Shown here: positions 3,249-23,417 of the stretch, one piece after another
Layout of the letters: each line of letters begins with the position of its first letter
Numbering within the stretch: position 1 is the stretch's first letter
Assembly: GCF_000014285.2 (NCBI RefSeq)
Contig: NC_008343.2
Span: forward strand, 2,218,501-2,282,500
Source of the DNA: Granulibacter bethesdensis CGDNIH1
GTDB lineage: Bacteria > Pseudomonadota > Alphaproteobacteria > Acetobacterales > Acetobacteraceae
Reading direction: 5' to 3'
Length of the DNA: 64,000 bases
Translations under genes and position numbers: made by a program
The notes under the pieces: generated by a model
The model's database searches: none
What the model was told of the DNA's origin: nothing
Seen by the model: only the letters and a program-made list of their open reading frames with translations

Positions 3249-4283
3249 ATGACCAGTCCGGGACGGGCCTTCATTACCGGAGCAACCGGCTTTGTCGGTT
3301 CGGCCGTCGCGCGTGCTTTGCTGCAACGAGGCTGGCAGGTCAGGCTGCTGACCCGGCGCAGCTCCGACACGCGGAACCTTGCCGGTCTCACCGCGGACAT
3401 TGTGGAGGGTGATCTGCTGCAGCCCGAAAGCATCACACCCCATCTGCACGGCTGTCAGGCCCTGTTTCATGTCGCTGCCGATTACCGCATCTGGGTGCCG
3501 GAACCGGAGGCCATGATGCGTGCCAATGTCGATGGTACCGTGGCTCTGCTGCGCGCGGCTCAGGCAGCCGGAATTGAGCGAATCGTCTATTGCAGTTCCG
3601 TCGCGGCGCTGGGCCTGATTGGTGACGGCACCCCCTCCACCGAGGATACGCCGAACAGCGAGGCCAAGACTGTCGGCATCTATAAGAAATCAAAATATCG
3701 GGCCGAACAGGCTGTTCTGCGGCTGGTGGCGGAGGAAGGGGTGAGGGCAGTGATCGTCAATCCCTCCACACCGATCGGGCCGCGTGACGTAAAGCCGACA
3801 CCGACCGGGCGCATGATCCGGGATGCAGCTTTGGGTAAAATGCCTGCCTATCTCGATACCGGTCTGAACGTCGTGCATGTGGATGACGTCGCGGAAGGAC
3901 ATCTTCTTGCCATGGAGCATGGCGTGCCGGGCGAACGCTATATTCTGGGCGGCACCGACATGCATCTGGCGGATATTCTGGCCATGGTGGCGCGGGAGAC
4001 AGGACGCAAACCACCACGCATCCGGCTGAATGAAACCTTGCTGTGGCCGCTGGCGATGGCCAGCGAGACACTGGCACGTCTCACCGGAATCGAACCGCTG
4101 GTCACGCGGGATCATCTGCGCATGGCCCGCAAGAAGATGTTTTTTTCCTCCGCCAAGGCCCGCACCGCGTTCGGCTGGTCGCCCCGCCCGGCAGAGGAGG
4201 CGATTCGTGATGCCGTTTCGTGGTTCCGTCAGAACGATCCCGCTTTCATCAGACAGCGGCCCGTCAAAGGAACCGCCGCATGA
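3249..4283 (+). CDS. hpnA: HpnA, hopanoid-associated NAD-dependent sugar epimerase
   Basis: A 344-residue extended short-chain dehydrogenase. The Rossmann motif GATGFVG is near residue 10, and the YKKSKYRAE stretch supplies the catalytic Tyr-x3-Lys. HpnA family members are NAD-binding epimerase-like proteins tied to hopanoid side-chain biosynthesis. It is the first gene of a tightly coupled plus-strand operon: its TGA overlaps the hpnB ATG (ATGA at 4280-4283). An AGGA lies directly against the ATG, so the ribosome-binding site is imperfect. Confidence 0.92.
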   Translation: MTSPGRAFITGATGFVGSAVARALLQRGWQVRLLTRRSSDTRNLAGLTADIVEGDLLQPESITPHLHGCQALFHVAADYRIWVPEPEAMMRANVDGTVALLRAAQAAGIERIVYCSSVAALGLIGDGTPSTEDTPNSEAKTVGIYKKSKYRAEQAVLRLVAEEGVRAVIVNPSTPIGPRDVKPTPTGRMIRDAALGKMPAYLDTGLNVVHVDDVAEGHLLAMEHGVPGERYILGGTDMHLADILAMVARETGRKPPRIRLNETLLWPLAMASETLARLTGIEPLVTRDHLRMARKKMFFSSAKARTAFGWSPRPAEEAIRDAVSWFRQNDPAFIRQRPVKGTAA

Positions 4284-20003: not shown

Positions 20004-20887
20004 ACCCTTTCCCCCCTGCACCACCTGCCGCGTCCTATCGCGGTCCGATCGCGTTTCAAGGGCAACCCGGTGCCTATTCCGACCTCGCCTGCCGTGCCGC
20101 CTATCCGCATCTGAACACCTTGCCCTGCCCGACTTTCGAAGCCGTGATCGAGGCCGTCCGCGACGGACGGGCCGATCTGGCCATGCTGCCTTGCGAGAAC
20201 ACATTGGCCGGCCGGGTGCCGGATATTCACTCCCTGTTGCCTGCCAGCGGGCTGTTCATCGTCGGCGAGCATTTCCAGCGCGTGGAGCATGCCCTGCTGG
20301 CCCCACATGGCGCGACGCTGGAAACGCTGAAACGGGCCCGATCCCACGCAGTGGCACTGGGTCAGGTCCGTAACATCCTGCGCGATCTGGGGCTTGAAGC
20401 CGTCGTGGAAGCCGATACCGCAGGCGCTGCAAAGCTGGTTGCCGAACTGGGGGGTACCGAGGATGCCGCCATCGCCTCCCCCCTCGCCGCCGAAATTTAC
20501 GGCCTGAATATCCTGCGCCGGAATGTCGAGGATGCAGCCCATAATACGACCCGCTTTTACGTCGTCTCGACCGCCGCCGCGCCGCCAGAGCCGGAACGCA
20601 GCGATACCATGACCACCTTTGTCTTTCGCGTGCGCAACATCCCGGCCGCGCTCTACAAGGCGCTGGGAGGGTTCGCTACCAACGGTATCAATCTGATCAA
20701 GCTGGAAAGCTATATGCTGGATGGTGCCTTCACCGCTACACAGTTCCTGTGCGATGTGATCGGTCATCCCGAACAGCCGCCGCTCCGCCGGGCGCTTGAA
20801 GAACTTGGTTTTTTCAGCCGGGAAGTGAAAATCCTCGGCGTCTATCCCTCCGCCCCCCAGCGTGGGATCACCGAACCAGCCGAATAA
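20000..20887 (+). CDS. pheA: Prephenate dehydratase with C-terminal ACT domain
   Basis: A 295-residue monofunctional prephenate dehydratase, making phenylpyruvate for phenylalanine. The catalytic domain starts IAFQGQPGAYSD and holds the TTRFYV motif near residue 179. A C-terminal ACT domain spans about residues 205-285. The classic Phe-binding motifs are altered: the GALV position reads AALY and ESRP reads ESYM. The latter is common in alphaproteobacterial forms, so loss of feedback control should not be assumed. Coupled to kdsB by ATGA. Confidence 0.94.
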   Translation: MNPFPPAPPAASYRGPIAFQGQPGAYSDLACRAAYPHLNTLPCPTFEAVIEAVRDGRADLAMLPCENTLAGRVPDIHSLLPASGLFIVGEHFQRVEHALLAPHGATLETLKRARSHAVALGQVRNILRDLGLEAVVEADTAGAAKLVAELGGTEDAAIASPLAAEIYGLNILRRNVEDAAHNTTRFYVVSTAAAPPEPERSDTMTTFVFRVRNIPAALYKALGGFATNGINLIKLESYMLDGAFTATQFLCDVIGHPEQPPLRRALEELGFFSREVKILGVYPSAPQRGITEPAE

Positions 20888-20896
20888 GCCGGAAAC

Positions 20897-22144
20897 TCAG
20901 ACAGTTCCCAGCCAACGTAGCAGAGGCTGCCACAGCACAGCCTCTGCCGAGCGGCCCGCCGTCATGCCGATATGGCCCGCCTCCATCCGGTGCAGCAACG
21001 CACCAGGGATAAGCTGTGCCAGCTTCAGGGCGCTGGCGGGCGGCACAATCCGGTCCCGGGATGGAACAGCCACAAAAGCCGGACAGTGCAAGGCGGCGGG
21101 ATCAACCACATGCCCTGCCACTTTCCATCCGCCTTGTGCCGGCAGATTGTCGCAATACCAGCCATTCACCACCTCCTGAGCCACCGGGGCCGCAAGGGAG
21201 ATCCCGTCATTGAGCCAGTCCTCCAGCGCCACGAAATGGTCGGCACGCGGATGATCCTGCGGCAGGCGACCAAAAGCACGGTATTTATCCGCAACCGCAA
21301 ACGGCTCAATCAACGCAAACATAATCTGGAGAATATCCACCGGCAGACAGCCGTACTGTTTCAGTATTCCCCCCAGAACAGGCTGCAACGCAGCACTCAG
21401 ACGCTGATGCTCCGGCCCGGCCGCATGGAAATCCCAGGGAGTGGCCAACAGTGCAAGCGCCCGCACCGCCTCCGGACGGCGCAGAGACGCAGCGAGAGCC
21501 AACAGGCCCCCCATACAATATCCAGCCATGACCACAGCCTGATCCGTCAGATCGGCAATAGCCTGCACAGCGCGATCCAGACGGCCCGCAATATAGTCGG
21601 TCAGACCGAAATGCTGTTCAGTTTCCCCCGGCCCGCCCCATTCCAGCAGAAAGACGCGATACCCGGCCTGAGCCAGCCGATCCATCAGGGAATAACCCGG
21701 TGCCAGATCGAGTACATAGCCGCGATTGATCAAACTGGGGACCAGCAAAACAGGCGGCAAATGGCCGGAACCCGGCGCAGGGTGCCGCAGAACCGTGCTT
21801 CCCCCCTCCCGCCAGATCACCTGTCTCGGCGGAGCATGGCGATAATAAGGATGCCGGCGATACGCCGCTACACCCGCGATCAGAGCCGCATCACGCTGAA
21901 GAGACTCGGTCCAGACCGCTTGCTCCAACAGTGGAGAAAATTCAGTTTTTCCCGCCGCTCTCCCGTGATGAAGCCTTTCGACCACGAGGTTTTGCAGCAG
22001 CTTTTCCGCCATCTCCGCCGCCTGCGGCGTTTTCCAGGCGGGCCAGCCGCTTTTCCAGCTCTGCAACCCTGCCAAGGAGAAACCGGAGCGCATCATCGCG
22101 AGGGTCAGATGCAGGCCGAGCGGCCGTGGGCCGCTGCGGTGCAT
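20897..22144 (-). CDS. phaC: PHA synthase-like (PhaC-like) alpha/beta hydrolase
   Basis: About 415 residues from the chosen ATG; an upstream in-frame ATG at 22237 would add 31. The lipase-box nucleophile is in GYCMGG, where the usual Cys is present; the later SRDRIVPP region holds the catalytic Asp and AGHIGM the His. The fold and boxes match PHA polymerases, but the protein is short and of the group starting GPRPL-HL, so it may be a synthase or a related esterase. The start lies about 200 bp inside the upstream PhaE-like frame. Divergent phaR supports a link with polyhydroxyalkanoate metabolism. Confidence 0.78.
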   Translation of the reverse strand: MHRSGPRPLGLHLTLAMMRSGFSLAGLQSWKSGWPAWKTPQAAEMAEKLLQNLVVERLHHGRAAGKTEFSPLLEQAVWTESLQRDAALIAGVAAYRRHPYYRHAPPRQVIWREGGSTVLRHPAPGSGHLPPVLLVPSLINRGYVLDLAPGYSLMDRLAQAGYRVFLLEWGGPGETEQHFGLTDYIAGRLDRAVQAIADLTDQAVVMAGYCMGGLLALAASLRRPEAVRALALLATPWDFHAAGPEHQRLSAALQPVLGGILKQYGCLPVDILQIMFALIEPFAVADKYRAFGRLPQDHPRADHFVALEDWLNDGISLAAPVAQEVVNGWYCDNLPAQGGWKVAGHVVDPAALHCPAFVAVPSRDRIVPPASALKLAQLIPGALLHRMEAGHIGMTAGRSAEAVLWQPLLRWLGTV

Positions 22145-22481
22145 GGGGCGCGGCTGCTCCGGCCTGTCTGCCGGATCGGGACTGTTGTGATCCACTTTCT
22201 TCTCCGCCCGCCTGTCCCGGCTCCTGCTGATAGCCACGCTCCTGCGAGGCTTTCAGAGCAGCCTGCATGGTTTCCATCGACTGTGCTGCCATGGCCGACC
22301 AATTCTGCGCCAGAGCCTGCCATGCAGACAAAGAGTCCGGATCACTGGCACGTGCCGATAATTCGCTCTGCCACAGATCGACCCAGTCACGGGCAAAATC
22401 AGCGGTGGATGTCGAATCGGACGTCGTCCCGGATCCGCTTCCTTCCGTCGACGGTCCTGCCCCCGTGTCGTTTCCCGCCAT
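21942..22481 (-). CDS. PhaE/phasin-like small protein upstream of phaC
   Basis: A 179-residue acidic-then-basic protein. The N-terminal third is Ser/Thr-rich, followed by a helical FARDWVDLWQSELSA stretch. A short leucine-rich coiled coil, LLGRVAELEKRLARLE, is near residue 140, and the tail is rich in Gly, Lys and Ala. This layout resembles PhaE-type partner subunits or phasins. Its last 68 codons overlap the PhaC-like gene in another frame. Both frames look coding: this one through the heptad pattern, the other through GC-rich third positions. Function is inferred from position. Confidence 0.6.
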   Translation of the reverse strand: MAGNDTGAGPSTEGSGSGTTSDSTSTADFARDWVDLWQSELSARASDPDSLSAWQALAQNWSAMAAQSMETMQAALKASQERGYQQEPGQAGGEESGSQQSRSGRQAGAAAPHAPQRPTAARPASDPRDDALRFLLGRVAELEKRLARLENAAGGGDGGKAAAKPRGRKASSRESGGKN

Positions 22482-22688: not shown

Positions 22689-23417
22689 ATGTCCATGCCC
22701 AACCCGCGTCCCGCTTCTTCCCGTGCTGCTGGACGCCCGTCCAGGTCCGTCAAAAACGCCTCTATGCATCACGTGGCGCAGGCGAATGGGGAAGCAGCAC
22801 CGGACCAGGATGATTCCCAGGATGATTCCCATGGGGCCCCGCCACCCGTCATTATCAAGAAATACGCCAACCGCCGCCTCTATAATACCGAGACATCCTG
22901 TTACATCACGCTTGAAAATCTGGCCGACATGGTCCGCACGGGGCGCGAATTCTCCGTCTTCGATGCCAAAAGCGGCGAAGACATCACAAGAAGCGTTCTG
23001 ACCCAGATTATCGTCGACGAAGAAAACAAGGGGCGGGCCATGCTGCCTACCACCTTCCTCCGGCAGTTGATCGGGTTTTATGGGGATAGCCTGCAATCCA
23101 TTGTGCCCCGCTACCTTGAGGAAGCCATGAGCACCTTTGCCCATCAGCAACAGCAGATGCGCAGTGCAGTACAACACACTATGGGCAGCTTTTTCCCGTT
23201 CGCTTCCAGCAGTACTCTGGAAGAAGTCAGCCGTCAGAATATGGCCATGATTGAAAAAGCCATGAGTCTTTTCAATCCATTCTATAAAGGACCGGAGACT
23301 CCGGTCTCAGAAAAACAGGATGAGCGTTTCTCTGCCGATCAAGAGATCATTCAACTAAAAGAAGAAATAAAAGCTCTCAAAGATCAACTAAAGAAAGCAC
23401 AAAGCAATTTTAAATAA
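22689..23417 (+). CDS. phaR: PhaR, polyhydroxyalkanoate synthesis regulator
   Basis: A 242-residue protein. The PHB/PHA accumulation regulator DNA-binding domain begins at VIIKKYANRRLYNTETS (about residue 53) and runs to about 115. A helical region follows, and a charged C-terminal coiled coil (EEIKALKDQLKKAQ) ends it. PhaR represses phasin and PHA synthesis genes and is released by PHA granules. It is divergent from the PhaE/PhaC-like pair across 207 bp. The first 50 residues are low complexity, so the start could be the internal ATG at about 22764. Confidence 0.92.
   Translation: MSMPNPRPASSRAAGRPSRSVKNASMHHVAQANGEAAPDQDDSQDDSHGAPPPVIIKKYANRRLYNTETSCYITLENLADMVRTGREFSVFDAKSGEDITRSVLTQIIVDEENKGRAMLPTTFLRQLIGFYGDSLQSIVPRYLEEAMSTFAHQQQQMRSAVQHTMGSFFPFASSSTLEEVSRQNMAMIEKAMSLFNPFYKGPETPVSEKQDERFSADQEIIQLKEEIKALKDQLKKAQSNFK

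Follow-up and report, generated by a model that had tools for sequence, protein, structure and literature searches.

A long out-of-frame overlap between a PHA-synthase-like gene and a gene for a small helical protein in Granulibacter bethesdensis and related Alphaproteobacteria

Two genes that diverge from phaR in Granulibacter bethesdensis CGDNIH1 share about 200 nt of one strand in different reading frames, and comparison with related loci indicates that this overlap is real, dual-coding, and old. The pair probably forms a unit in which a PHA-synthase-type protein, here called C, is joined by a helical partner, E, that acts as its accessory subunit. The locus alignments show the arrangement throughout the family (Acetobacteraceae) loci examined and in most of the class (Alphaproteobacteria) loci examined. 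In the proposed mechanism, the shared DNA would encode the C-terminal coil and basic tail of E in one frame and the N-terminal motif, first helix, and spacer of C in the other. C would be translated from its own ATG within E through a Shine-Dalgarno (SD)-like site and not by termination-reinitiation, and E would bind C as an accessory subunit in the manner of PhaE in class III synthases; this role for E is suggested by analogy with PhaE. The overlap would persist because shortening either end would lose a functional segment, and it would keep the E-C pair linked and on one mRNA.

The window is the whole 64,000-nt stretch analyzed (contig NC_008343.2, positions 2,218,501 to 2,282,500) of a 2,708,434-base genome in one contig. 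Its open reading frames place E and C on the minus strand with 203 nt in common (203 = 2 mod 3). The C frame stays open upstream as far as a GTG at 22237, and the length of 203 nt assumes initiation at the ATG that most closely precedes GPRPL in the C frame. The initial annotation had described about 200 bp of one strand coding for two proteins, with a coiled coil and a Lys/Gly tail in the upstream frame and a GPRPL-HL start in the downstream frame. Each element is present: the two open reading frames overlap out of frame, E contains LLGRVAELEKRLARLE and a Lys/Gly-containing tail, and C carries GPRPLGLHL near its N terminus. The core of the E coil, AELEKRLARLE, faces C residues 28-38 (LQSWKSGWPAWK), where the first helix of C ends and the spacer starts. 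At the other end of C (20887-20897), only 9 bp separate C from the end of a convergent prephenate dehydratase gene; this gene, and not a phaA-like gene, is the next one beyond C in the window.

Table 1. Features of the E-C locus, in window coordinates
Feature	Position	Strand	Description and basis
Gene E	21942..22481	-	179 aa, ATG start; small helical protein without family match; open reading frame and translation, homologs with the same placement
Gene C	20897..22144	-	PHA-synthase-like alpha/beta hydrolase, 415 aa from the ATG at 22144
Dual-coding overlap	21942..22144	-	203 nt; E frame at +2 relative to the C frame
C motif GPRPLGLHL, C residues 5-13	22106..22132	-	Faces E residues about 117-126 (QRPTAARPASD, linker)
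E coiled-coil helix, E residues 127-154	22020..22103	-	Faces C residues about 14-42 (end of C first helix and start of C spacer)
E N-terminal helical hairpin, E residues 21-85	22227..22421	-	Outside the overlap; AlphaFold2 and non-overlap profile
E basic low-complexity tail, E residues 155-179	21945..22019	-	Translation; weak constraint in both frames
C spacer, C residues about 31-70	21935..22054	-	Faces the E coiled-coil end and E tail; pLDDT block means 60-72
GGAG, Shine-Dalgarno-like	22157..22160	-	12 nt 5' of the C ATG
C Cys210 in GYCMGG box	21515..21517	-	Candidate nucleophile with Asp364 and His391; invariance in 82 sequences
phaR, divergent PHA regulator gene	22689..23417	+	TIGR01848 157.6 bits, cut-off 109.45

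The fold, conserved residues, and gene neighborhood of C agree with the initial description of the downstream protein as PhaC-like. From 142 chosen loci, two alignments were drawn, A1 (window E plus 96 sequences) and A2 (window C plus 81). Pro6, Arg7, Pro8, and His12 are invariant in the 82 proteins of A2, as are Gly208, Cys210, and Gly212, which make up a G-x-C-x-G box, and Asp364 and His391. Cys210, Asp364, and His391 are candidates for the catalytic roles of their counterparts in PHA synthases. C matches alpha/beta hydrolase families. Its score against the class III PhaC model TIGR01836 is 153.9 bits, below the cut-off of 365.3, and five relatives score 148-168 bits. The AlphaFold2 model of C, built with 82 sequences, has a mean pLDDT of 91.8 and a pTM of 0.90; confidence is 88-93 for residues 1-20, 79 for residues 21-30, and 60-72 for residues 31-70, and the core is well modeled. 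A Foldseek search of the PDB with this model returned PhaC structures for all 15 best matches (E 3e-17 to 2e-13, TM by query 0.50-0.61), among them 9knk, 5xav, 6k3c, 5t6o, and 5hz2. Elsewhere in the same genome, a 627-aa open reading frame (L002, G000:C1:1590673-1591476) encodes a class I PHA synthase that scores 703.9 bits against TIGR01838, above the cut-off.

The phaR gene lies divergently upstream in 123/129 family and 79/89 class loci, and a co-directional phaA-like thiolase gene follows in 37 of 58 loci (16/29 family, 21/29 class) within a flank of up to 1.5 kb. Seven Azospirillum plasmids carry, in order, phaR, C (named 'alpha/beta fold hydrolase'), an acetyl-CoA acetyltransferase gene, and phbB, and for A. 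baldaniorum Sp245 a passage in a review assigns the phbCAB operon to plasmid 4 (PMC10383645). This phaR, thiolase, and phbB neighborhood, Azospirillum plasmids included, supports C as a putative PHB synthase. E is present in all seven of the Azospirillum records as a frame of 165-180 aa in frame 2 to C, and the PLSDB gene tables of these records list nothing between phaR and C. In A. brasilense Sp7, the E-C pair occupies about 416,978-418,523 of NZ_CP012917.1. E is likely absent from the original records too; the PLSDB table itself is known to be incomplete.

E appears to belong to an unnamed protein family. A profile of the family E proteins found 76 of the 83 class E open reading frames at 1e-3; these came from 83 of the 89 class loci (L170, L190, L205, L223, L229, and L231 were omitted). 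Because conservation of C alone could create likeness in the overlapping part, the search was repeated with the non-overlapping N-terminal part of E, which found 69/83 at E<=1e-3, 33 at 1e-10, and missed 14. The conserved core reads approximately DLxxLARDWITLWQSELAALAADxE and is followed by a linker, the coiled coil ELERRLAxLE, and the basic tail. Window E matched no family in Pfam and NCBIfam at 1e-3. With the 97 E proteins as queries, Pfam gave weak coiled-coil families, of which DUF7310 matched 47 members (best 4e-5), and the PhaE models PF09712 and TIGR01834 were absent among the best 25 of 73 Pfam families and the best 25 of 44 NCBIfam families. We did not detect a match to either PhaE model at the E locus in nine genomes at E<=10, applied after a permissive prefilter, and membership of E in the known PhaE families is rejected on this ground. 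The earlier name 'PhaE-like' for the upstream gene is thus borne out by position and architecture and fails by sequence. One of these nine genomes (G191) carries, apart from its E-C pair, a PF09712 protein above the cut-off (L272, G191:C193:4262-4867), so PhaE and E-type partners can coexist.

The AlphaFold2 model of E (97 sequences) consists of a helical hairpin (residues 21-45 and 48-85), a disordered linker, and a single helix (residues 127-154) with a pLDDT of 95-96 over residues 131-150. The pTM is only 0.35, so the model leaves the mutual arrangement of these parts undefined. A Foldseek search with the model gave no matches at E<=10, and the PDB chains that the E profile matched, all weakly (best 2.5e-4), were chiefly coiled coils or designed helical proteins.

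Of 246 loci scanned with the E profile, 30 gave no match; C can thus occur in the absence of E. These 30 loci comprise 11/89 class loci, 6/6 of L244-L249, and 13/20 weaker relatives, among them L267, which is truncated by a contig end. L244-L249 (genomes G831, G787, G310, G793, G805, and G845) keep a GPRPL-like N terminus of C with no detectable E. In L245-L249, the distance from the motif to the Cys is 136-138 residues versus a median of 192, about 55 residues shorter. The idea that the C spacer is present solely because of the E overlap was rejected, since twelve other loci lacking an E profile match keep a distance of 177-201 and the link is therefore loose; in four of these twelve (L215, L216, L217, and L233) the frame-2 open reading frame is still there. 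Five loci (L170, L190, L223, L229, and L231) have a full-length or nearly full-length spacer, no frame-2 open reading frame over the motif, and no E profile match, and they are probable losses of E. In L201, the E frame stops 38 nt beyond the motif, which leaves almost no overlap, and the N-terminal part of E is weakly recognizable. In L017, from a draft genome, the N-terminal domain of E and the part downstream of it match in different frames, owing either to a frameshift or to misassembly. On a tree of 121 C cores, 15 gains or losses of E are needed; the tree is poorly resolved, with 58/118 branches open. Rows with E occupy deep positions and rows lacking it are scattered, a pattern compatible with early presence of E followed by repeated loss.

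The strongest alternative accepts both proteins and their overlap and holds that E is a granule-associated, DNA-binding, or regulatory protein and not a subunit. The basic tail, the lack of a clear homolog of known function beyond weak coiled-coil matches, and the C-bearing loci in which E was undetected are consistent with it. Against it, E sits within one and the same C family in almost every locus examined, and its hairpin and coiled-coil architecture is suited to binding, though neither point proves binding. We regard this alternative as unlikely, though it is by far the most serious competitor to E as an accessory subunit of C.

The distribution of the overlap was determined in samples of increasing breadth. 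C had a match at 1e-3 in 232 of 299 family genomes (some to other PhaC-type genes only) and E in 129 of 299. The window, two congeners, and 127 other well-ranked matches from the 232 genomes gave 130 family loci, and omission of L058 and L084, which are cut at contig ends, left 128 untruncated ones. In the class sample, 120/289 genomes matched C at 1e-30, and 89 loci from other families were taken from the 119 non-window matches; 20 weaker relatives were added later. In a phylum-wide sample of 299 genomes, 15 matched at 1e-45: the window's own genome and 14 labeled as the same class; such labels covered all but 264 of the non-matching genomes. A frame-2 open reading frame was scored if it had at least 90 codons, spanned the C motif, and ended 100-340 nt beyond it. 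Such a frame, always in the same phase (+2 to C), occurs in 128/128 untruncated family loci and 82/89 class loci, as a same-strand gene adjoining a PhaC-type gene in the manner of phaE; the third frame qualifies in 5/128 and 5/89. Both frames are thus conserved in relatives, as befits a genuine long same-strand overlap, and the upstream frame, whose breakage in close relatives would have argued against the initial annotation, is unbroken in the congeners L003 and L004. In all 128 family loci, the second open reading frame ends 110-284 nt beyond the motif, and the overlap measured from the nearest start before the motif is 125-335 nt (median 209).

A start codon precedes the motif in all 128 family loci (nearest start ATG in 103, GTG in 23, TTG in 2) and in 87 of the 89 class loci, with the motif position estimated where the pattern is absent. 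The nearest start reads ATGA, GTGA, or TTGA in 88/128 family and 36/83 class rows, which creates a stop in the third frame, not in the E frame. The initial annotation had expected the overlap to couple the two proteins tightly. Reinitiation is described as strongly dependent on stop-start proximity, within about -8 to +10 nt, termination-reinitiation as lost at a spacing of about 20 nt, and long overlaps as typically uncoupled (PMC10666635). The E stop lies 203 nt beyond the C start in the window and 125-335 nt beyond it in the 128 family loci. Termination-reinitiation is therefore unlikely, and the expectation does not hold for classical coupling. SD-like pairing was stronger at 211 C starts (-3.6 kcal/mol) than at 3822 internal Met/Val codons (-2.6 kcal/mol, p 1e-6), and an SD motif precedes 32% of C starts versus 11% of internal codons. 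Together with the distant E stop, this enrichment makes independent initiation at the internal ATG of C on a shared mRNA the most likely mode of translation, as read from sequence features. Ribosomes translating E would cross the C start and may tune the E:C ratio.

Programmed frameshifting, with the overlap as the shift zone, would instead yield an E-C fusion. Such a shift would be possible in the 128 untruncated family loci, where 12 or more codons of open C frame precede the motif. We consider a fusion very unlikely given the start codon upstream of the motif in every family locus, the SD-like enrichment, and the class loci, where the open C frame ahead of the motif can be as short as one codon. 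Independent initiation of C is retained.

Selection was analyzed position by position in both frames. E codons begin at C third positions, so that E positions 1/2/3 coincide with C positions 3/1/2. From 211 rows, 57 greedy pairs were formed, each sequence used once, with 72-98.5% C identity. In the overlap, the proportions of sites that differ are.118/.169/.209 for C positions 1/2/3, and over the 300 nt that follow the E stop they are.114/.089/.315. Position 2 is higher in the overlap in 50/57 pairs (Wilcoxon p about 1e-9), position 3 is lower in 52/57 (p about 6e-10), and position 1 shows no difference (29 higher, 28 lower, p 0.60). A single coding frame would not yield this pattern, because C-silent sites are slowed and mostly E-silent sites are speeded. 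The motif segment (.052/.029/.227) has the C pattern, the E coiled-coil segment (.086/.227/.089) the E pattern, the E tail segment (.153/.218/.263) is intermediate, and the segment beyond the E stop gives.113/.089/.314. Over a distance of about 20 codons, the dominant constraint therefore shifts from C to E, and it reverts to C after the E stop. The comparison shows that constraint alternates along the DNA, with the C motif opposite the Ala/Pro/Arg linker of E and the E coil opposite a C stretch tolerant of second-position change. Such a both-frame comparison with relatives had been suggested in the initial annotation, and it finds the C-silent third positions slowed and the E frame constrained.

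An RNA structure at the C start was considered as the cause of the third-position constraint and rejected: the 61-nt folding energy is -22.9 versus -23.4 at internal codons (p 0.54), and the faster second positions in the overlap are also at odds with it. The ratio SN/SS does not by itself indicate constraint. It is 1.19 in the overlap, not below 1, with only 40 observed changes in the SS class, and it is 1.62 (.0889/.0550) beyond the E stop, where no E exists, so this class is biased by codon choice; the case for selection in both frames comes from the position and segment analyses.

Shared descent was controlled with 69 rows of less than 60% C identity (2 family, 67 class), in which silent sites are presumed to be near saturation. 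Conservation of the E coil is 46.6 bits (64 rows) versus 25.8 +- 0.6 expected when C codons are redrawn with the amino acids unchanged, and conservation of the C motif is 43.0 bits (68 rows) versus 23.3 +- 0.4 expected when E codons are redrawn. C also exceeds expectation in the coil segment (38.8 versus 29.2), as does E in the motif segment (29.0 versus 25.3); in each of the four comparisons, 0/500 draws reached the observed value. Since C keeps some conservation of its own opposite the E coil, the division between frames is real but unclean.

These data bear on the view that C starts downstream of 21942 and that the overlap is a spurious 5' extension. Misannotation of 5' ends is reported as the commonest error behind long overlaps, with 409 of 715 co-directional overlaps over 60 bp attributed to it in one survey (PMC2478687), and the C start does vary between loci, from 3 to 32 codons ahead of the motif. 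No displacement of the start beyond 21942, which would have contradicted the initial annotation, was seen in the orthologs: in 219 anchored rows, the motif, upstream of the E stop, reads GPRPL in 199 and xPRP in 215. The four exceptions are one GPIPL, one SPVPL, one truncated locus, and L232 without a recognizable motif. The spurious extension is rejected because this conservation goes far beyond what the E protein explains, and the confident model of the first 20 residues of C and the start codons upstream of the motif also speak against it; we judge it exceedingly improbable.

The remaining alternative is that the E frame ends earlier or is untranslated through the overlap and is open by chance in GC-rich DNA. 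When C codons were redrawn with the amino acids kept, the E frame stayed open in a mean of 56% of draws per locus, so that an open second frame in one GC-rich sequence proves little; in the window the figure was 20%, and in L235 and L236 (GC 0.45 and 0.41) it was 0.25%. The recurrence of the open frame in one phase goes beyond chance openness. Among the 25 class loci below 60% GC, the frame-2 open reading frame is found in 20 and a third-frame one in 0. C-synonymous changes that make an E stop number 3 per 941 weighted opportunities (.0032) in the overlap and 51 per 2160 (.0236) beyond the E stop, a ratio of.135, or about one seventh; p values from these counts are too small because each pair is taken in both directions. 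The loci were found through C alone, and 0/128 family loci were dropped for missing E, whereas six class loci with no usable frame-2 open reading frame were left out before this count. Heptad residues conserved with an E-frame position pattern, recurrence at low GC, and stop avoidance together lead us to reject chance openness, which is scarcely credible. The alignments show that both frames are open, homologous, and constrained.

Annotation error is the usual explanation given for long same-strand out-of-frame overlaps. In a survey of 338 genomes (Palleja et al. 2008), all 715 co-directional overlaps longer than 60 bp were judged not to be real, and the longest real one reported is holD-rimI at up to 56 bp (PMC2478687). 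A later source notes that archaea and bacteria have since yielded examples of genes embedded in other frames (PMC8665328). Among the open-licence papers listed by literature searches, judged by titles and abstract openings, none was recognizable as a description of the E-C overlap. Dual-coding overlaps are thus already known, and E/C appears to be one that is unusually long and widely conserved, with an unnamed upstream family. It extends over about 200 nt, recurs in most class loci examined, and has a readable division of labor between the frames.

A broader reading, whose merits we find evenly balanced, is that E-C is an ancestral class-wide dual-coding module in which the missed family E would be an essential subunit of the main phaR-linked PHA synthase group, locked in the enzyme N terminus since before the sampled families split. 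If true, this would be among the longest and most widely conserved same-strand bacterial overlaps known and would run counter to the 2008 survey, in which no overlap longer than 60 bp was accepted. Should E prove to be a synthase subunit, phaC clones and mutants made without regard to E would need re-reading: in the window, roughly the N-terminal 60% of E would be missing from a construct that begins at the C ATG, and a deletion of C would take the end of E with it. PHB engineering in such bacteria would then gain a missing part.

In class III PHA synthases, a helical PhaE partner is encoded beside the PhaC-type catalytic subunit. The E-C pair resembles this system in having a C protein of similar size beside a helical partner, a Cys/Asp/His set, and a PHA gene neighborhood. 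It differs in the small size of E (179 aa here), in the lack of PhaE-model matches at the E locus, in a C score far under the TIGR01836 cut-off, and in the out-of-frame overlap of about 200 nt between the two genes. Like the enterobacterial holD-rimI pair, E/C is a conserved co-directional out-of-frame overlap of two real genes, but holD-rimI spans 32-56 nt within enterobacteria (PMC2478687), whereas E/C spans 125-335 nt in the family loci and occurs in many families of the class. The short -4/-1 nt overlaps treated in PMC10666635 also join adjacent same-strand genes for likely partner proteins; in E/C, the E stop is about 200 nt downstream of the C start, outside the coupling range reported there. 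A parallel for the division of constraint is HIV-1 Env/Rev, where the key residues of one protein fall on tolerant residues of the other (PMC9119678). Unlike that viral case, E/C resides in a bacterial genome and divides its shared DNA mainly by consecutive segments.
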